DNA of 64,000 bases from Leptothermofonsia sichuanensis E412 (GTDB lineage: Bacteria > Cyanobacteriota > Cyanobacteriia > Leptolyngbyales > Leptolyngbyaceae): positions 5,146,001 through 5,210,000 of the forward strand of contig NZ_CP072600.1 of assembly GCF_019891175.1 (NCBI RefSeq), in the 5' to 3' direction. Positions 7,660-59,030 of this stretch are shown here, piece after piece. Both the position numbers and the translations under genes were made by a program. How positions within the stretch are numbered: the first letter of the stretch is position 1; every line of letters begins with the position of its first letter. The notes under the pieces were generated by a model. That model did no database searches. It saw nothing but the letters and a program-made list of their open reading frames with translations, and was not told where the DNA came from.

Positions 7660-8907
7660 ATGCAACCCACTTCGTCTTTCTGGTTAAAAAATTCGCCCTA
7701 TGATCAGGTTCACACTACCCCTGAACTGCCGCGGCGATCGCCGGTGGTGGTGATTGGAGGCGGCATTACAGGAGTCAGCACGGCCTACTGGTTAGCCAGA
7801 TTGGGCATGGGCGTAACCTTGCTGGAACAGCGGGGGGTGAGCGGAGGAGCCACGGGTCGCAATGGGGGACATATTGCTCCAGCCCCGATTGAAAAATTCA
7901 TTGCCACGCTGGAACGGCATGGGAAAGAGACTGCCTGTGCCCTGCGGCAATTTTGTGAGAAAACGGTTGCCGCCATTCAGGCATTCGTGTCAGAGCACCA
8001 GGTCGATTGTGACCTGCGCTTTACGGGTGGGGTTGAATTAGCCAGCAGTCCAGAGGAACTGGTTTACCTGCAACAGGCGGCTGAAGTACTGGCAAAGCAT
8101 GATATTGCATTTGATTTTTGGAACGCGGATCAGTGTGCCGAACAAACCCGCAGCCCGGATTTTTTGGGTGGACTTTACATTGCAACGCGGGGGCAGATCT
8201 GGGCAGCCAGGCTGGTGTTTGCGATCGCAGAACAGGCCATGCAATTGGGAGTAAACATCCAGACGCAAACCCAGGTGCAATCGGTTGAGACTATTAACGG
8301 CACGCTAAACGTCATAACCAATCGAGGTACCATTCAGGCAGATCAGGTGGTTCATGCCACCAATGCCTGGGCAAGTCACCTCCTGCCCTGGGTAAGCAAT
8401 ATCATCATCCCCATTCGGGGGCAGGTCCTGGTGACGGAACCCGTTCAGCCCATGTGGGATTTTTGCTTTTCCACCAATTTTGACTACGAGTATTGCATTC
8501 AGCGTCCCGACGGACGCATTGTACTGGGTGGGATGCGCTGGCGATCGCCCACGATGGAAGAAAATATTGATGATGACAGTGAAGTGAATTCCTTTGTCAG
8601 CCGGGGGCTGCGAAGTTTCTTACCCACCCATTTCCCTGATCTGAACTTTATCCAGATTGAGCAGGAATGGACCGGGATTATGGGATTTAGCCCCGACGGC
8701 AATCCCTTAATTGGACCGTTGCCCAACCGTCCGGGGGAATGGATTGCGGCAGGGTTCACCGGGCATGGGATGTCACGGACTTTTTATGCCGGGAAGGCGA
8801 TCGCTGAAATGATTCTAGGAAAAGAGCCAGAGGTTTTTGTCGAAGCATTTCTACCGTCCCGATTCCTTGATCAGGACAGTCAGCGGCTTCTGCAAAAAGC
8901 AGGATAA
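7660..8907 (+). CDS. amaA: FAD-dependent oxidoreductase, DAO family; probable L-pipecolate oxidase
   Basis: 415-residue D-amino-acid-oxidase-fold flavoenzyme. The dinucleotide motif GGGITG lies at about residue 33, followed by the acidic residue ending the second strand (LLEQRG) and the GGATGRNGGH motif common to GlpD/DAO-type pipecolate and GABA-related oxidases. The C-terminal FAD contact is GFTGHGMSRTFYAGK. It begins 3 nt after the aldehyde dehydrogenase, so co-translation is likely. In Pseudomonas, AmaA makes piperideine-6-carboxylate, the substrate of AmaB. The substrate here is inferred from neighbours; oxidation of another amino acid or amine is possible. Confidence 0.75.
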   Translation: MQPTSSFWLKNSPYDQVHTTPELPRRSPVVVIGGGITGVSTAYWLARLGMGVTLLEQRGVSGGATGRNGGHIAPAPIEKFIATLERHGKETACALRQFCEKTVAAIQAFVSEHQVDCDLRFTGGVELASSPEELVYLQQAAEVLAKHDIAFDFWNADQCAEQTRSPDFLGGLYIATRGQIWAARLVFAIAEQAMQLGVNIQTQTQVQSVETINGTLNVITNRGTIQADQVVHATNAWASHLLPWVSNIIIPIRGQVLVTEPVQPMWDFCFSTNFDYEYCIQRPDGRIVLGGMRWRSPTMEENIDDDSEVNSFVSRGLRSFLPTHFPDLNFIQIEQEWTGIMGFSPDGNPLIGPLPNRPGEWIAAGFTGHGMSRTFYAGKAIAEMILGKEPEVFVEAFLPSRFLDQDSQRLLQKAG

Positions 8908-8912
8908 CTGAG

Positions 8913-8954
8913 ATCTTGCACCATTCTCAACAAGCCTTGAGAATGGTGCAAGAT
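8913..8954 (+). terminator. Perfect 18-bp stem-loop after the lysine-catabolism operon
   Basis: ATCTTGCACCATTCTCAA (8913-8930) pairs perfectly with 8937-8954 across a 6-nt loop, five bases after the stop of the flavoenzyme gene. The stem is very strong but is not followed by a T run, so it may act as a 3' end stabiliser or a factor-assisted terminator. Confidence 0.7.
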
Positions 8955-9120
8955 TTGAGATAACCCAAGGTGGTTCTGATACCGATTTAAACAGCGGATC
9001 AGACAGATTCCCGATTGAACACTTTGTGCGGTGCGACTTCTAAAATCTAAAATCGCAAATCTAAAATCGCATTTCACGCAGCTTTCACGGTTGCCATTAT
9101 CTCAATTGCCAGATTGCTGC

Positions 9121-12100
9121 TTACGCAGTGCGCCAGTATTTCTGGATTGCGGCAGTGATTGCCAGAATTGCCAGCACAATGTTCAGTATTGATAGACCTG
9201 CAATGGCAGTGAGGGCAAGGTGCAAACGCTGTTTGACCGCCACATGACGCTCCTGCTCCATCTGCAAACGCTGTTCAAGCACACTCCTTAATTTTTCCTC
9301 TGTAGTCAACTGTTGTTGCAACTCAATGCTCCCCTTTTCCTCTGACTGCTTACGCTTGTCACGCTCGCGTTCCAGTTCTTCCACCAACCCGGTCCTGTAC
9401 TGCTGCCGAATGAAACTGACCAGGTAGTCATGCACCAACTGATAGAGGTTAGCAGGGGATTGGGGGATTTCGAACACAAGCCCAGAGCCGACCAGGACTT
9501 CCAGCACCAGGTCGAGTTTATCAAGGTCATGGGTCATGCCCAGATCCACCAGGTCCGCTTCCAGATCGTCGCGAGTTTTGAGGGGGCGAGTGCCATTTTC
9601 GTTGGTGAGCAGGAATAGCAGAATGCGGGCAATGTCTTCGTTTTCGGGGCCACAGTCCCGTACCACGGCCTCCAGGGAACGTTCCACCAGTTTTTCCTTG
9701 GGGCCTTTTTGCCGGTACGCAGCCAGAGTCGTGATGCCTTCTGCCTGGAGTTGGGCACCGACCACCTGAAGTTCGATCGGACGAATTGTCCCCAACTCTT
9801 CCGCCAGGTCATCGACCAGTGCCTCCACCAGGTCATCGTCCAGGTAAAACTGGGCGTGGGCAGTCAAGCTTTTGATCACCGATCGCGCATCTTCAAGGGT
9901 AAAGTCCCCCAGGGGGTAGCGAATATCCTTACTGAGGATGTCGTTGTTGAGGATGTCCAGGTTGGTCAGGCGCTGAAACTCCAGCAGGTAGTGGAGATAG
10001 TCTTCCCGCAAGGAAAGGATGACTTTGACGTAATCCAGGTTGATGCACTCGCTCAGGAAGTTGTAGAAAAGTCGGCGTTTTGAAATCGTTTCGTAGACAA
10101 AGAAGAATTCCTCAAACTGGTCAAAGATGAGGACAGGCAGAAGGCTGGCACTGGTGGCCTGTTGGAGGCGGGAGAGGAGGTCAGGTGAGGGGATAGGGGT
10201 AAGGAGGGAGGAGGGAGGGGTACTGGATTCTTCTCCTTCTGCTTCCGCGTCTTTTTTCCCCACTTCCCCCCCTGGCAAATAACTTGCCAACACGGCCTGC
10301 CAGTCTGTATAGCGGTCTACGACAATGGGTACGGCGATGCGATCGCCAATTACCCTGTCCCTCAAGGCGGGAACCAGTCCGGCACTCACAATTGAGCTTT
10401 TACCGACCCCGGAGGGACCGTGGATCACCGTGAGTTTGTAGTCTCGCCTTTGCAGACGGGCAATCAAACGATTTACATCCTGCTGGCGACCGGAGGCGGC
10501 AATTTCCTGTGCCAGCAGGGTTGTGGCATCGACTGTATCTGGTAATGCCAGAGTCTGCTGTGGCTCCAGACGTAAGGCTCCGACAAAGGCGCGGAAGCCA
10601 AACTGCTGCTCCAGCGATCGCCGTAGCTGCTTGGTGTGAAATGCCTCCCGGTAGTGCTTCTCATCAAAGTAGGATCGTTCCAGAAATTGCAGGATCTGAA
10701 TGTAAAGTTGAGGGTCATTTTGGGGATAGGTCTGATCTCTGGCGGTTTCCAGATGGGCGATCGCCGTGGCTCGTTGCCCCAGGTGGGCTTCTGCCTTTGC
10801 CAGCAGCAGTAAGTACCAGCCGGAATGATAGCGATGGGCAATGTCCAGGCTGGCTTCCAGATGGGGATGGGGATGGTCGTGGTCAGCCAGAATTTGCTCA
10901 GCCGTGTCCAGAAGACGGCGGGCAGCTTCCAGGTGATGTTTTGCCTCTGCCCATTTAGCGTAGTTGATCGCCACTTCGGCCAGAAAGCCGTGGTCCCGTG
11001 CCTGGCGCACCAGGTCCCTGTAAAGCTTGTGCAGCACCAGTGCCTTCCTTGCTAGTTCCCCCAGTTCCGGCCACTGCCCCAACTTTTGCAATACCTCTGC
11101 CTCTGCTGTGATGAACTTGGCAACCAGGTCTTGCCGGTTAATGTGTTCAAATAACTCCCGACTCTGCTGAAAGTAACTATGGGCGCGGCGACAGGCTGGT
11201 TCATAGATCGCTCGTTGCAACACCGCATTGGAACGCCAGAGCAAGCCGAGGTGGACCAGAACACAGGCAGCCCGTTCTGTGTGGGGAGCGGGGCGGAGGG
11301 TATAGGGGATGGGGGGATAGGTGGGGGGAGAGTCAGCAGGGAAGGGAGGCAGGGGTACTTCTTCCCCTTCGCTTCCCTGCCCCTCCCTGTTTCCCTCTCC
11401 TCTCTCCTCTCTCCTCTCTCCTCCCTCCTCTCTCCTCTCTCTTCCCTTCTCTCTTCTCCCTCCTCCCTCCTCCCCCATCCGGCTTCGCCAGAACTCCAGG
11501 CTACGCTCATAGTAATGGCGGGCAGTTTCCAGTTGAGCCTGAGTGTGTGCCTCCTGTCCCAGAAGAAAGTCCAGGTTGGCACGCAGGGCCGGGTCAAGGG
11601 GTTGACCGCTGTTGGTGATGCGGTTGAGGGCAAATTCCAGTTCGGTGCGGCGGAGAGAGTTGGCGGGGGGCGCGGCTACCCAGTTGGGCAAGAAGTATTC
11701 ATCCCCAGAGTCAAGGATTCTGGCAAAGACCCGATTGGTGTGGTCCCGCAGGGAATCGATCAGGTCGGCGATCGCCAGGTCAAATTCAATCACCGTCCCC
11801 CAACTTCTAAAGTCTGGTGCCAGCCGTGATAACCGCTGCAACACCCAGTCATTCACCCACAGCACCAGTGGATATTTCAAATGCTTGGGAAACTCATCCC
11901 GCACCTGATTGGTCGATACCAGAACCGGATCAAGGTGAGTGAGGGATTCTAAGCCGAGGATGAGGAGGGCAGAAGGATCAGGGACCGTGGGGGAGCTATC
12001 GGGGGAGGGGGGAGGGGGGAATGGGGAATGGGGGGTGGACTCTGGACTCGACATTCGGTCCCCTTCTTCCCCACCCGATACCCGGTACCCGGTACCCGGT

Positions 12101-53730: not shown

Positions 53731-53752
53731 GTTATTTTTGACAAGCCACTAG
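53731..53752. repeat. Remnant of family B repeat (right end), forms the stop codon of the adjacent peptide gene
   Basis: TTTTTGACAAGCCACTAG matches the right end of the 109-bp family B elements (TTTGACAGACCACTAG). The final CTAG holds the minus-strand TAG stop at 53749-53751. Confidence 0.65.
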
Positions 53753-54063
53753 TCTTTGATCGGTGCAGCACCGCCGTTGCCGATTGAAGCACCATCTTCC
53801 AGCTTAGAGAAAGCAGCACTTTGAATAGCCTCTATCAGCCATTCAGCCGGTGTGCCAGCATTAACTCCCGGTTGAGGTGAATCACTCTCTCGATTAGGCA
53901 CAGGCATTACTTCTGCCATCGATCGGAGCAACATCTCAGGAGGCGTTCCAGCATCAATCGTTTCAATTTCAGGAAACTTTGCTGAATGATTGCCTGTCAA
54001 TGAATTTTTAGTAACCGATGTTTTCACTTCACCCTCCGGATTGATTTCAATCATAATACGCAT
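53749..54063 (-). CDS. Small repeat-containing peptide of the S8-protease cluster
   Basis: 104 residues, no cysteine, no transmembrane helix. After MRIMIEINPEGEV there are three diverged copies of an (D/N)AGTP-type motif: IDAGTPPEMLLRSM (about 35), VNAGTPAEWLIEAI (about 67) and GNGGAAPIKD at the very end. The gene has a good AGGAG ribosome site 9 nt upstream and starts 15 nt after the beta-domain gene. The leader-plus-repeat layout beside a subtilisin-like protease suggests a processed precursor or a protease partner; this is inference. The stop lies in a repeat end, so the tail may be truncated. Confidence 0.6.
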   Translation of the reverse strand: MRIMIEINPEGEVKTSVTKNSLTGNHSAKFPEIETIDAGTPPEMLLRSMAEVMPVPNRESDSPQPGVNAGTPAEWLIEAIQSAAFSKLEDGASIGNGGAAPIKD

Positions 54064-54078
54064 ACCCTTATCTCCTGG

Positions 54079-54333
54079 CTAATTCAGAATTGCGTAGCGG
54101 GCTTCGATATTGACCGGGTTCGATGTCAGATTTTTAATCGTGACCCAGTAAGTCAAATTGGCGGCGGATGCCCTCTCAACCGCAACATCCCATTCAATTT
54201 GTGCTCCCCCAACCTGAGGAGAGGTCGGCACAACATACCACACGACATGTCTACCCTGGGGCCAACTGTGGGTGAACCAGCGGCGTGTAGCTCCAGCGGG
54301 AAGGGTTCCTGTAAATTGAACTCCAACAGTCAT
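54079..54333 (-). CDS. Stand-alone copy of the S8 protease C-terminal beta domain
   Basis: 84 residues (MTVGVQFTGTLPAGATRRWF...VNIEARYAILN). By eye about 50 of 82 positions are identical to residues 519-600 of the neighbouring protease, so it is a separate gene for that domain. It is beta-rich with conserved Trp residues and no signal peptide. An AGGAG ribosome site lies 8 nt before the ATG. It could bind the protease, its substrate or a surface, or act as a decoy. Confidence 0.75.
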   Translation of the reverse strand: MTVGVQFTGTLPAGATRRWFTHSWPQGRHVVWYVVPTSPQVGGAQIEWDVAVERASAANLTYWVTIKNLTSNPVNIEARYAILN

Positions 54334-54382
54334 TGATGTTTCTCCTTTTATGGTTTAAGTGTTTGAGCGTTACTGATTTTGG

Positions 54383-54439
54383 GTACGAAATAGAGGGTGT
54401 GTGAATTGAGTCCCTTTAATTCATAGGACTATTTCGTAC
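54383..54439 (-). repeat. Stem-loop inside the S8-protease cluster
   Basis: GTACGAAATAG (54383-54393) pairs with CTATTTCGTAC (54429-54439) between the protease stop and the small beta-domain gene. It may reduce read-through and set the ratio of the two products. A sequence of similar type (GGGTATGAATTGAGC...AATTCATACTGC) lies at 58981-59040. Confidence 0.6.
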
Positions 54440-54458
54440 CACTTGCGTTTGTGTTAAG

Positions 54459-56267
54459 TTACCAACCCAGGACTGCGTAACGCCCTTCAATATTCACAGG
54501 AACGGGCGTCAGGTTGGTGACGCTGATCCAGTACGTAATGTACTCATCGGAAGCTCGCTCAACCTGCACCTTCCATTCCACCTGGGGCGCACCTGGTCTG
54601 GGGCTGGTTGGCACAACGGTCCAGATCACATGCCAGTGGGCGGGCCAGCGGAAGGTGAACCAGCGCTGGGTTTGATTGGCGGGAACGGTACCTGTGAATT
54701 GAACCCCTACCCAGGTATTTGTTTCTAAGGCACGGGTAATCAGTTGGCGCAGGTTGGGGCGATTGCCAATCCGTTCAGTCCGGGGACGAGCGGGATGATT
54801 TTGAGGATAGCCAGATCCCGTCATATTGGGAATAAAGGTGAAACCGGGTGCATCCTGTTGGGGAGAACCTGTTTCTCGGAGCAACTGTCTCGCTCGCGCT
54901 GGACTCAGCAGAACCCGTCCCCGCGCCCGCAAAATACCTTGCACGCAGGCCAGGGCACCGACGACGATCGGTGATGCACTGGATGTTCCACTGAATTGGT
55001 CGGTGTACCACTGATTGCGATCAGAGCCACCCTGCAAGTCGCCATATCCAGTTGTTGTGACTTCCCATCCCCAGCCCTGGGCATCAATTCTGCTCCCGTA
55101 GTTGGAGAAATAGCAACGCCCCCGGTCGGCATAAATATCCCCCCAACCGGGATGGGCTGTTCTACCGTGGGTGCCGGATGGCGGCATCCCAGCTCCTACA
55201 ACAACCGCTCCTGAACTGGGATTACTGGGATTGAATGGGTTTGTCCAACTGGCGGGGAAGCCTGCCGGACGAGTATCGTAGATCGGATCATCTAAGTTTT
55301 GTCCGCCGTTACCGGCAGCTTCCACGACAATGATGCCTTTGGTTACGGCATAGCGAATTGCGGCAAAGTCATCGGGCCACCATTCAATGCCAATAAAACC
55401 GAATTGCCCACTTCCTGCCGAACTCCTGGGTCCAGAACGATGAACTTCCAGTAAGATGATGTCGCCTGGGCGGAGTCGGTCGGCTGCGATCCGAATGGCT
55501 TCGGCTGTGCCGTGAGTCGTAAGGGAAACAGCCATGGCATGGGCATCGGAGCTAATGCCGGTGACGCCAAAGGTGTTGCGATCGCCACTGTATTCACCTA
55601 ATACAGCGGTTCCGTGATTATCACTGGTAGAACTTGTACCAGAAACAACCCCTCCCTGATTCTGACGTAAGTCTTCGTGGTTAAAGTTCCAACCCCACTC
55701 AATATCAATGATATTGATGCCAGCGCCCCGTCCACCCGGTAACGTCCAGGCATATTGGGCATCAATCCCTGTTGGAGCAGGCTCCAGATAGCCCTGACGT
55801 GCTGTAAAATCTGGTGTAGTTGTCGGTGCCTCTTCAACTCTGGGTGTCATTTCGTTCAGCGTGATCAGAGCGGGTTCGGCTGGCGGTTTGACATAAGCTG
55901 CTGCGATGGTTTCAAGCTGACGTAATTGTTCGGCTAAGGTATCCAGACGTGCATCGGGGGCTTCAACATGGTAATACACCGAAAGATCTGGGATATCGGT
56001 TTCTCCCTCTGTTGCCAGCGCTGCAACTTCCGCCTGCAATCGATCTTCGCTCAGTCCGAACAGGGGTTGCAGGGTCGCTCCCTCAGCATTCAGCAAGTTT
56101 TCCAGGGGACTGACATCTGCTCCCATCACGGATGCAACCCCGTCACGGGTTGCCCGTAGCCCACTATCACTCTTGGCAATTACCACTAACTCTCGTTTGA
56201 ACGGCCCTTCCATCCCTGATGGATGGTCAGGCGAACTGGGGTATCCCATTTCCGATGATGGTGTCAT
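54459..56267 (-). CDS. Subtilisin-like serine protease (S8) with propeptide and C-terminal beta domain
   Basis: 602 residues, no signal peptide. An N-terminal propeptide-like region (about 25-165) includes YHVEAPDARLDTLAEQL and AAAYVKPPAEP. The S8 catalytic domain has Asp188 (NIIDIEWGW), His218 (DNHGTAVLG), Asn320 (AAGNGG) and Ser429 (SGTSSASP). The C-terminal beta domain (518-602) is repeated as a separate gene downstream, and the propeptide part is echoed by a gene upstream. An internal GGQNLDDPIYDTRPAGFPASWTNP insert is typical of Ca2+-binding or substrate loops. Cytoplasmic location or non-classical release is implied. Confidence 0.88.
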   Translation of the reverse strand: MTPSSEMGYPSSPDHPSGMEGPFKRELVVIAKSDSGLRATRDGVASVMGADVSPLENLLNAEGATLQPLFGLSEDRLQAEVAALATEGETDIPDLSVYYHVEAPDARLDTLAEQLRQLETIAAAYVKPPAEPALITLNEMTPRVEEAPTTTPDFTARQGYLEPAPTGIDAQYAWTLPGGRGAGINIIDIEWGWNFNHEDLRQNQGGVVSGTSSTSDNHGTAVLGEYSGDRNTFGVTGISSDAHAMAVSLTTHGTAEAIRIAADRLRPGDIILLEVHRSGPRSSAGSGQFGFIGIEWWPDDFAAIRYAVTKGIIVVEAAGNGGQNLDDPIYDTRPAGFPASWTNPFNPSNPSSGAVVVGAGMPPSGTHGRTAHPGWGDIYADRGRCYFSNYGSRIDAQGWGWEVTTTGYGDLQGGSDRNQWYTDQFSGTSSASPIVVGALACVQGILRARGRVLLSPARARQLLRETGSPQQDAPGFTFIPNMTGSGYPQNHPARPRTERIGNRPNLRQLITRALETNTWVGVQFTGTVPANQTQRWFTFRWPAHWHVIWTVVPTSPRPGAPQVEWKVQVERASDEYITYWISVTNLTPVPVNIEGRYAVLGW

Positions 56268-56302
56268 ATCTCGACATCTCCAAAATGGTTAAACATTAAA
56301 AT

Positions 56303-56572
56303 TCAAGGCATGGCATCAGGCGGCTTAACATACGCCGCCTCAACTGCGTTCATAGGCTGAAGGCGATCGATCACCTGTTGTGCGGTTACCGGGTCAGGCG
56401 CGGCTACTGTGAAATAACTGCGCAGTTCTGGATCAGTAACACCAGGGTGCATTGGTTGCAAAGCCAAACCAAAATCATTGAGCGCTTCTAATAGTTCTTC
56501 GGTTTGGTTCCTGGAACCTGCTTGATAAAGGTTATCTGTCACATCTGTCGAAACCTTGACAATAACTTGCAT
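56303..56572 (-). CDS. Stand-alone propeptide-like protein of the S8-protease cluster
   Basis: 89 residues. It matches the propeptide region of the neighbouring protease: VIVKVSTDV..., ALQPM, RSYFTVAAPD, and the shared ending VEAAYVKPPDAMP (protease: IAAAYVKPPAEP). By analogy with I9-type propeptides it could chaperone or inhibit the protease. The ATG at 56572 follows an AAGGTG ribosome site by 6 nt; a GTG three codons earlier is less good. The gene ends 35 nt before the protease start. Confidence 0.75.
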   Translation of the reverse strand: MQVIVKVSTDVTDNLYQAGSRNQTEELLEALNDFGLALQPMHPGVTDPELRSYFTVAAPDPVTAQQVIDRLQPMNAVEAAYVKPPDAMP

Positions 56573-56895: not shown

Positions 56896-57794
56896 TTACT
56901 GTGATTGCAACTGAGCATTCAGGGTTTTGTCGATGCGATCGCGGGTTTCTTCTAAATGGGCACGGGTGTAGGCATCCAGTTTATTTGCTTTGCGAAGGGT
57001 TCTATCCAGGGCACTGCGCAATTGCCTCAGGTTGTACCAGGCCAGGGTGCGTGCGTCTTCGGGGGCTGCGATCGTGCGTCGAACCATGTCCGACATCAAC
57101 CTTAAATGCTCCCGCTGTAGACCCCGACGCAGGCTGGAAAGACGCGGCGTGCCTTCCGGCTGCAACACTTCTCGCCAGACGGCCATCTGTAACGTCTCAA
57201 ATAGCTCTGGAATGGTTAATGCGTGGTCAGGGCTTCTCAGTTCGGCATCTCGCAGGCGAGCCAGACGATTGTAGTCCAGCAGTTCTTGCAAAATGGCCGA
57301 TTGCAAAAACAGGACGCGATCGTGAATCGGGTAGTCGAGTGTTACCACCTCAGGCACCTCACCCCAATGGTTCCAGCGAGAAGGAGCCAGCCGGTTGAGG
57401 AAGCTGGGTGAGAAGTGGAACTGATTTTCATCAAGCACATATTTTTGCACCAGCACCAGTGCCTGACGCTGCTTTTCCAGGGAAACAGGCTCAAACGGAA
57501 GCCGGTCGCTCCTATCTCCGCTGCTGGCAAACCGGTTAAAGGATTGCCCCCCCACATAGCGGGTGAGAAAGCGGGCATATTGAAAGTAATACTCAAAAAT
57601 TTCGTCAAACATGACTCGCCCATCTCCAAAATGCTGACCCAGGGTGGGATAGCGTTGTTCCAACCGTTGCCACATTCGACGGGCATTTTCCAGTTGCCAG
57701 GGAGCATAGGTGAGCAGGTCGTCACTGAGGTCAAAGGGGTTGATCTGGGGGGCCAGACGGGCAACCGTGTCTTCATCCGTCGCGTAAGCAAGGT
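56896..57794 (-). pseudogene. C-terminal fragment of a zinc-dependent metalloprotease (DUF4953-type)
   Basis: The frame reads DEDTVARLAPQINPFDLSDDLLTYAPWQLENARR..., then YVGGQSFNRFASSGD, PFEPVSLEKQRQALVLV and FLNRLAPSRWNHWG, the C-terminal part of large DUF4953/5117 metalloproteases. The catalytic HExxH part is missing. The frame begins where an efflux-adaptor gene breaks off (about 57795), so both were cut by one deletion. An ATG at 57675 leaves a 259-residue open frame, but a functional protease is not possible without the missing part. Confidence 0.75.
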
Positions 57795-59030
57795 CGGCTT
57801 CAGCAGGTCGCTGGTATTCACCAGCTCGGCTGTCACAGGAATGGTGCGCTTTTCGCTATCCACCACTGCTCCAACCACAATCACTCGCCCGTTAAAGATT
57901 CGCCCTGGCAGACTGGCAACCGTTGCTCTCACGCGCTGCCCAGGGGCGATCGCCCCCAGATCCTTTTCGTAGACATTCGCTGTCACCAACAGGCGATCGC
58001 CATTTACGATCTGCATCAGCGGTGTTACCGCCTCTTCTACTGCCTGTCCCAGAGTAACGGTGCGATTGACAACGACTCCATCAATCGGTGCCACAACGGT
58101 TACCAGCCCCTGGTTTGTGGCAGGGCTATTCAGTTGCTGCAAGCGCGTTTCATAGGTGGCGGTACTCAACCGCATCTGAGCCTGGGCGGCATCCAGAGCT
58201 GCTTTTGCCCGATCCAGTTCTGCCTCTGCCTGCAATACAGACTCTCGACTATTTGCCCGTGTCAGTTGACTTTGAGCTGTTGCCAGTTCTGCCTCTGACC
58301 CCAACACCTGCTGCCGGGCGATCGCCCCTGCCTGCACCAGTTCGCGATCGCGGTTGTAGCGATCCTGAGCAAAATGCAATTGTCCCTGAGCTGCTTTAAT
58401 TTGGGCACGGGCGATGGTCACTTGCCGTTGATAGTTGCGTTCTGCCAGAGTCAAATTTGCCTGAGCCTGACGCAGCGCTGCCTGTGCCTGGGTGCGGTTG
58501 GTTTGAGCATTCACCCGTAGCTCAATTAACTCGGGTGCCACCACCACTGCCAGGAGTTGTTCTTTTTTGACGCGATCGCCCGGTTTCACCCGCAGTTCCG
58601 TCACCGTTCCGTTGATTGGGGCATTCACAGAGACTTGCTGATCGGGTTGGGCAGCAATTTCGGCAGTCGTGCGAATGCCAATATCCAGAAACTCACGGCG
58701 GACTGGCTCCACCACTATTCCCAGCCGTTTAGCGGTTTGACCATCCACCTGGATACCCTGCACCGACGGGCTATTTCCTGGCTGAAAGTCAGAACTATGA
58801 TCATGGCCACCGTGGGCAAACACCAGGTTCACAGGCGACAGCAAAAACACTCCCAGCACCGTCAAGGGCAGGTAATGCTTCCCATACCATGACCCAATAG
58901 ACCTGCGCAAACCGCTCCCATCTATACGGTTCAGCCCGGTTTGCCCTATTCCTATCGTCTTTTTCGGCGTTGCTGATTTCGGGTATGAATTGAGCGTTGT
59001 ATGAATTGAAACTTTGAAACTTCGGTCCAA
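57342..59030 (-). pseudogene. Truncated CusB/HlyD-type efflux adaptor running out of frame into the metalloprotease remnant
   Basis: Residues up to about 412 are a metal-efflux RND periplasmic adaptor: signal sequence ending in NLVFAHGGHDHSSD (His-rich), biotinyl-lipoyl halves (VNAPINGTVTELRVKPGDRVKKEQLL...APIDGVVVNRTVTLGQAVEE), a long coiled-coil hairpin, and a beta barrel to SDLLKP. From about 57794 the frame continues out of phase through the metalloprotease remnant to 57342 and is meaningless. The end of the adaptor and any RND pump gene are lost. No ATG exists; TTG at 59030 or 58910 would start it. The neighbouring CopM/CopR/CopS-like genes suggest a former copper-efflux adaptor. Confidence 0.8.

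Follow-up and report, generated by a model that had tools for sequence, protein, structure and literature searches.

A subtilisin-like protease gene flanked by free copies of both of its own ends

Introduction

Why should a protease be encoded together with free copies of both of its own ends? This question is raised by a 64,000-nucleotide stretch of the genome of the cyanobacterium Leptothermofonsia sichuanensis E412 (contig NZ_CP072600.1, positions 5,146,001 to 5,210,000), hereafter the window. Read from position 56572 to 53749, four of its genes encode a free propeptide-like protein, an S8 subtilisin-like protease, a free copy of the protease's C-terminal domain (domain X), and a repeat peptide. 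A first reading of the DNA alone (the original prediction) had singled out this cassette. Here we describe its genes, their homology and linkage, and their recurrence in other genomes. Our preferred answer, held tentatively (probability roughly 40%), is that the protease is guarded by a free inhibitor, while its tail domain may serve as a docking hub, assembling with the free copy and holding the peptide on a tether.

Results

The cassette comprises the following features.

56303-56572, minus strand: free propeptide-like protein, 89 residues (open reading frame; ends AAYVKPPDAMP; I9-like)
54459-56267, minus strand: S8 subtilisin-like protease, 602 residues (open reading frame and Pfam Peptidase_S8)
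54462-54716, minus strand: C-terminal beta domain X of the protease (alignment with the 84-residue protein)
54079-54333, minus strand: free copy of domain X, 84 residues (open reading frame; 61-62% identical to the fused copy)
53749-54063, minus strand: acidic repeat peptide, 104 residues (MRIMIEI start, three (D/N)xGxP-type repeats)

The genes are separated by 35, 125, and 15 bases. All four same-strand reading frames of the original prediction are present, and each has the proposed ribosome site, an AGGAG-, GGAG-, or AGGTG-like stretch shortly 5' of its ATG. An alternative GTG start 9 bases upstream would extend the 89-residue protein to 92 residues. As also predicted, no signal peptide was apparent in any of the four proteins when their N-termini were read by eye. 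By composition the cassette does not stand out as foreign, its G+C content (0.522) being equal to the value for the window (0.518). A promoter scan returned five promoter-like sites against 3.0 expected and was not informative.

The 602-residue protein belongs to peptidase family S8 (PF00082 Peptidase_S8, E 1.9e-14), the only domain found in a Pfam scan of the cassette. It consists of a pro region (approximately residues 23-136), a catalytic domain (150-510), and domain X (517-602). D188, H218, N320, and S429 were invariant in all seven proteins of the protease alignment. From general knowledge of the family, we take D188, H218, and S429 to be the catalytic Asp-His-Ser and N320 the oxyanion Asn. 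The structural model of the protease was mostly poor outside the pro region (mean pLDDT 55.6), which was modelled at pLDDT 75-92 (blocks of ten residues, 21-130) with a dip at 71-90. The small cassette proteins were named by neither PADLOC nor PHROGs, and NCBIfam gave domain X a chance-level match only (13 bits).

Companion genes were delineated in 18 clade loci whose proteases were at least 45% identical to that of the window. For each protease, the pro and C-terminal regions were searched against the remaining frames at the same locus. Locus L012, with its pro region and catalytic part in different frames, was left out of this set.

The 89-residue protein had been recognized as a stand-alone propeptide by an AAYVKPP motif in common with the protease. 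This assignment was confirmed by profile-profile comparison, in which a profile of this protein and five other free propeptides matched seven protease pro regions with an hhalign probability of 98.4% (E 8.9e-15). Like I9-type inhibitors, it is a separate gene product homologous to a subtilase propeptide. It matched none of the Pfam propeptide or inhibitor models at E up to 1, and is 48% identical to the free propeptide of the bacteroidete Lunatibacter.

A free propeptide adjoins 8 of the 18 clade proteases (the window, Lunatibacter L003, Blastococcus L005, L006-L008, L040, and L041). Its gene lies upstream, divergent, or downstream of the protease, and is divergently transcribed in L006-L008. 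In the Bacteroidota loci L040 and L041 it lies downstream and encodes, as judged by eye, a lipoprotein-type N-terminus, which is absent from the start of the protease. Nine aligned free propeptides end 8-14 residues past the AY or AF of the motif. This is the end point expected for a tail entering the active-site cleft; known propeptide-subtilase complexes have the tail of the propeptide reaching into this groove.

These assignments vary in strength. The propeptide model was trained on the free proteins of the window, Lunatibacter, and L040, such that the scores of these three are not tests. Outside the training set it detected L005 (E 0.0034), L006 (6.5e-8), L007 (8.9e-5), L008 (3.3e-5), and L041 (1.3e-14, a sequence close to the L040 training sequence). 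A profile of six free propeptides that did not include L040 matched the L040 gene as the sole match in its genome (E 0.0069); single-sequence comparison with the pro region gave E 0.017. The L005 free propeptide is weak by both methods (E 0.00054 by single-sequence comparison) and its start codon is unclear. Three candidates were not counted: a frame at 7717-8283 of L037, with a weak match to the pro region (E 0.0011) and no AYxKP end, and frames in L034 (E 0.016) and L038 (E 0.009). As the latter two score at this level, single-sequence E values near 0.01 represent chance here. A search of 166 Bacteroidota genomes with the free-propeptide profile matched three, two of which adjoin a protease, while the third is a partial match inside a 403-residue frame. 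No free propeptide was detected within 6 kb on either side of the protease in Haloferax L009.

The 84-residue protein had been described as a stand-alone copy of the protease's C-terminal beta domain, with about 50 of 82 residues identical by eye. The count holds, with 50 identical residues (61-62%). Free X was modelled with six strands at a mean pLDDT of 88.0. Domain X was named by neither Pfam (0 matches), NCBIfam, PHROGs, PDB sequences (only 13 bits, E 0.65), nor viral contigs. In the latter, none of 32 pattern matches for X was confirmed, and the protease had no pattern match. Among the fold matches listed, the best reached Z 7.1, and all were weak and nearly tied: GOLD, YPM, collagen-binding, pyocin fibre tip, KP-43 C-terminus, and H-type lectin folds fell within approximately 2 Z units. 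Weak viral neighbours that carried names were often tail-fibre, tailspike, or H-type-lectin proteins; many had no name. We read these matches only as indicating a predicted binding-type beta sandwich, and no narrower.

A free copy of the C-terminal domain adjoins the protease in all nine loci whose protease ends in X (3) or in a second domain, Y (6), with E values of 6e-45 to 4e-6. Even at a threshold of E 1, the X model matched no Y locus. The other 9 of the 18 proteases end in neither domain. In L004, L010, L011, and L037 the tail is minimal, absent, or short and truncated; L006-L008 end in a Lys/Glu-rich coil, and L040 and L041 in hemopexin repeats (L040: Pfam E 1.7e-98, 8 Pfam stretches). 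Thirteen more distant subtilase loci (L031-L033, with short flanks, and L052-L061) contained neither copy at E up to 0.01, save one 48-residue frame (5.5 bits).

Fused and free X are 80% identical within Lunatibacter and 79% within Haloferax, compared with 57-74% between genomes. Six X columns vary by genome, yet agree between both copies of each genome, and one column (Tyr in free, Thr in fused copies) separates free from fused in all three genomes. These patterns fit copies that change together, be it by conversion, fresh duplication, or a common partner.

The 104-residue peptide had been credited with three (D/N)AGTP-like repeats. Three copies of the motif [DN][AGV]G.{0,2}P are present, a count reached by none of 20,000 shuffles, although the third repeat (NGGAAP) departs from AGTP. 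The peptide was the only one of 154 window open reading frames of at least 80 residues with two or more copies. In a four-sequence comparison made without composition correction, it matched the peptides of Lunatibacter (E ~1e-9) and Haloferax (~2e-6). All three begin with MRI(I/M)IE and contain 3, 3, and 5 copies in the order window, Lunatibacter, Haloferax (0 of 20,000 shuffles each). The peptides are acidic, and Pro, Ser, Thr, Gly, and Ala make up 43-59% of their residues, a composition which suggests that they are probably disordered.

A repeat or low-complexity segment accompanies all nine X or Y loci. It is a separate peptide gene in the window, L003, L009, and L005. In L034, L035, L036, L038, and L039, large actinomycete genomes that we label Streptomyces-like by judgement, the protease ends in a Y-like domain, and its downstream neighbour consists of a Gln-rich part followed by the domain copy; the best 60-residue stretch of the Gln-rich part contains 26-36 Gln. 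The most informative relatives of the cassette are as follows.

Lunatibacter L003 (all four genes, same order as the window): free propeptide 7866-8138; protease 8175-10007; X copy 10042-10296; peptide MRIIIE from 10308
Haloferax L009 (archaeon): protease; X copy 7806-8060; 213-residue frame MRIIIEI from 8074 with five (D/N)xGxP-type repeats
Blastococcus L005: weak free propeptide; protease ending in Y; free 73-residue Y 9699-9920; 110-residue Pro-rich peptide MDPVIVINIYL

The Haloferax repeat-peptide frame runs from an ATG at 8074 to 8715 and is mostly missing from the gene table, which gives only 8563-8715.

A scan of genome contigs identified six protease relatives (Lunatibacter, Spirosoma, Blastococcus, Pelomonas, Roseateles, and a beta-proteobacterial metagenome-assembled genome). 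Plasmid records yielded 17 at E up to 1e-10, led by Haloferax mediterranei pHME505 and a Nostoc commune plasmid. Counting the genome at the centre of each search, the protease occurred in 1 of 386 sampled cyanobacteria (E up to 1e-30), 7 of 296 genomes of the Blastococcus class (Blastococcus protease as query, E up to 1e-40), 6 of 345 genomes of the Lunatibacter phylum (three at only 40-43% identity; E up to 1e-40), 1 of 349 genomes of the phylum of the beta-proteobacterial assembly (E up to 1e-40), 1 of 120 genomes of the G773 family (L040 protease as query, E up to 1e-60), and 1 of 150 genomes of the Pelomonas order (L006 protease as query, E up to 1e-60). Beyond the centre genome, these tallies are 0, 6, 5, 0, 0, and 0, respectively. 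Among 161 sampled cyanobacteria, the X profile matched only the own genome, with its two known copies; among plasmid records it matched one, that of Haloferax.

The window and Lunatibacter proteases are 73-75% identical overall and 81% identical over 340 columns of the catalytic domain. A tree of 25 catalytic domains grouped window, Lunatibacter, and Spirosoma (support 100/99) apart from the Nostoc plasmid protein. This grouping and the patchy spread suggest that the cassette protease probably spread horizontally. The original prediction had looked to cyanobacterial genomes for the conserved order; the layout is instead not a cyanobacterial one, occurring in full or nearly so in a bacteroidete and an archaeon. 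It had also allowed that the small genes might be noise or lie scattered without the protease. They are conserved companions whose order is kept in another phylum, with the free propeptide and C-terminal domain recurring elsewhere. Within the samples searched, X was not seen apart from the protease, and neither X nor the free propeptide was found scattered without it.

Among the flanking window genes, those scanned encode an SLT lytic transglycosylase with TPR, a DUF4953/HlyD efflux-type adaptor with a met-zincin remnant, and a DUF305 protein; the remaining window genes were read by eye. Directly upstream of the cassette, on the minus strand, two genes are joined at what looks like a deletion scar (56896-59030). 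The reading frame of a CusB/HlyD-type adaptor (57342-59030) there leads, with a change of frame, into the remnant of a DUF4953 met-zincin gene (56896-57675). The transglycosylase gene is present in 3 of 3 family relatives, where the cassette is absent beside it. As the other flank is not conserved in these relatives, no clean empty site could be read. Elsewhere in the same genome, three PF14065 (Pvc16_N) matches lie near positions 1457229, 3548327, and 4513535 of G000:C1, suggesting up to three contractile-injection loci.

Several relatives have settings of their own. In the beta-proteobacterial loci L006 (7845-11615), L007, and L008, the Lys/Glu-rich protease tail is followed by a gene of unknown kind and then by an ATP-grasp-like gene. 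Pfam identifies the L006 gene as RimK-like, and those of L007 and L008 resemble it by eye. The coil could be a substrate of this enzyme. In L041 (4731-8057), hemopexin-like repeats, identified by eye, lie inside the catalytic domain, between GYGxLQG and GTSSASP, as well as behind it. The Lunatibacter cassette is followed downstream by a gene for an astacin/matrixin-type metalloprotease (L003, 11253-12398). On a Serratia plasmid (L056, 4824-7688), the next annotated gene after a distant subtilase bears the label cytolethal distending toxin subunit B family, and a trypsin-like gene lies upstream. On a Rhizobium johnstonii plasmid (L062, 1949-8562), an intact 87-residue free propeptide and a truncated protease lie between a trypsin-NucA fusion and a SIR2-HerA pair.

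Discussion

In our preferred model, the cassette is a self-contained protease module that has spread horizontally. Its S8 protease would be made with its own pro region, and the free propeptide-like protein would bind the same active-site cleft in trans, placing the C-terminal tail past its AYxKP-type motif in the groove and keeping the protease off. By analogy with I9-type inhibitors, we infer such inhibition for the 89-residue protein. This is the firmest step of the model, given the clear homology, the 8-14-residue tails, and the known stand-alone inhibitors. A docking hub would be formed by the C-terminal domain, which is X in the window and Y in actinomycetes. Different tail domains are each copied as free proteins, which implies that the free protein and the protease tail act through the same contacts, and it is this copy rule that points to a hub. 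Bearing the same kind of surface, the free copy could co-assemble with or cap the protease's own domain and so set the number of proteases per complex. The repeat peptide might be a flexible tail tethered to the hub, and the first substrate or bait met by the protease once the inhibitor is removed. The peptide step is the weakest; its best support is the low-complexity part fused to the free domain in the Streptomyces-like loci.

Several observations weigh against this model. In the window itself, fused and free X are 62% identical, no closer than X copies from different genomes. Four of the 18 clade loci (L004, L010, L011, and L037) have neither companion. The companions are also separable: L006-L008, L040, and L041 have a free propeptide with no domain copy, and a domain copy was found with no free propeptide in L009 and the five Streptomyces-like loci. 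The two may thus not form one machine. The tally for Y assumes that the Blastococcus and Streptomyces-like tail domains are one family, as one model was trained on both. Finally, the Blastococcus peptide contains no (D/N)xGxP motif, such that the peptides may be analogous only.

A wider version of the model is, in our judgement, rather doubtful. It would place the cassette in a distinct class of protein-only conflict or assembly modules found across bacteria and archaea, operating without an NTPase through a free propeptide inhibitor, a homotypic hub, and a tethered bait peptide. As part of this version, the like-with-like adaptor logic of apoptosis-type systems would be transferred to exchangeable beta-rich domains.

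Context offers divided hints as to role, being defence-like in Rhizobium and envelope-type in two Bacteroidota, with none from the scanned window flanks. The reading given in the original prediction, a self-regulated processing or intercellular-conflict system, is supported as far as the conserved companion genes go. An effector and immunity module acting between cells is an unlikely alternative. The protease would be a delivered weapon, with X or the modules swapped for it binding targets, the free propeptide conferring immunity, and free X and the peptide aiding delivery or blocking self-binding. The lipoprotein-type free propeptides of L040 and L041 would sit where immunity against an incoming protease is expected, and suggest envelope protection as by an immunity protein. 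The C-terminal modules are indeed exchanged (X, Y, hemopexin repeats, Lys/Glu-rich coil, or none), and the weak fold neighbours of X include pyocin fibre tips, tailspike domains, H-type lectins, and the KP-43 protease C-terminus. These fold matches reach Z 7.1 at most, however, a level explicable by common arrangement alone. Of 16 records, 14 of them whole genomes, seven carry the contractile-injection marker PF14065, all seven being whole genomes; it was in 0 of 14 control genomes, which give no background rate for these phyla. The Lunatibacter match lies on the cassette contig, approximately 42 kb off, but those of the own genome are some 690 kb or more from the cassette, and no secretion gene was recognized beside it.

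Intracellular defence in the manner of NucA-trypsin or IetAS systems, in which a phage cue would free the protease from its inhibitor and lead to client cleavage and a growth stop, appears slightly less probable still. It would accommodate the plasmid carriage and patchy spread, the Rhizobium locus, and a Paenibacillus locus where the protease lies beside a trypsin-like protease and a second subtilase; Kaur et al. also report S8 domains in some NucA-trypsin polypeptides (PMC7159879). The Rhizobium protease is truncated, however, and neither defence genes among the scanned flanking window genes nor an NTPase sensor beside the window cassette was seen. Against PADLOC 2.0.0 models, the four cassette proteins and one neighbouring protein gave no match (0 of 5, E up to 1).

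That the repeat peptide is a precursor trimmed by the protease, as by NisP or PatA/PatG, is improbable. A short acidic repeat peptide does adjoin a subtilase, and NCBIfam gave a very weak PatA/PatG match (TIGR03895, E 0.089), although its 11.5 bits fall far below the cut-off of 421. No modification enzyme was recognized beside the peptide in the window, L003, or L009, the four peptides contain no Cys, their repeats differ between genomes, and free X and the free propeptide would be left unexplained. In Haloferax, an ABC transporter with a solute-binding protein lies upstream of the cassette, and the Pelomonas relative has a RimK-like ATP-grasp gene nearby, with no such repeat peptide seen there. 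We give least weight of all to the small genes being decaying, functionless fragments of tandem duplications. Partial duplications would leave such copies, but the frames have stayed open in an archaeon and in two phyla of bacteria, and in the window they are preceded by ribosome-site-like stretches; free propeptides occupy varied positions and orientations, and different tail domains are each copied (9 of 9).

If the inhibitor-guarded model is right, the cassette, most of which Haloferax mediterranei also carries, is a compact example of how free copies of a protease's own parts can control it. Free copies of a protease's terminal domains would then provide a search rule for more modules, and the like-with-like adaptor principle of bacterial conflict systems would be widened to beta-sandwich domains and archaea.

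Comparison with known systems

Stand-alone propeptide-like proteins are potent subtilase inhibitors, as described for SUB1-ProM and three I9 proteins (POIA1, the yeast peptidase B inhibitor, and TgMIC5) in the part of PMC6993865 consulted. The 89-residue protein resembles MEROPS I9 members and their mimics in being small, separate, and propeptide-like, and SUB1-ProM is likewise encoded beside subtilase genes (PMC6993865). The examples named there are eukaryotic. The cassette, in contrast, is bacterial, places the inhibitor gene with the protease to whose pro region it is detectably homologous, and adds a free C-terminal domain and a peptide.

The EAD principle, a domain common to a protease and its partners with presumed like-with-like binding (Kaur et al. 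2020, 2021; PMC8195603), has a parallel here, since a domain of the protease is repeated in another cassette protein at all nine X or Y loci. Most EADs in that work are helical (9 of 12), and larger core systems are their setting, whereas a beta sandwich is predicted for X, and the flanking window genes scanned showed no NTPase core component.

NucA-trypsin systems (System 3) and nuclease-protease pairs offer a similar multi-peptidase setting, and the Rhizobium free propeptide adjoins such a fusion; the window cassette, unlike these, has neither nuclease nor trypsin. IetAS is an anti-phage pair of an AAA ATPase and a subtilase. The cassette resembles it as a small gene set containing a subtilase, and differs in having no ATPase and a protease that no PADLOC model, IetS included, matches.

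IPI, the inhibitor of the Bacillus intracellular subtilisin Isp1, is a small all-beta protein that partners a subtilase, a part that free X may likewise play, although the abstract does not present IPI as a copy of a domain of its protease (PMC3901451). The original prediction had recognized no described system with this layout, and searches of an open-licence literature library likewise showed no protease with free copies of both ends and a peptide. Each part by itself has known cousins.

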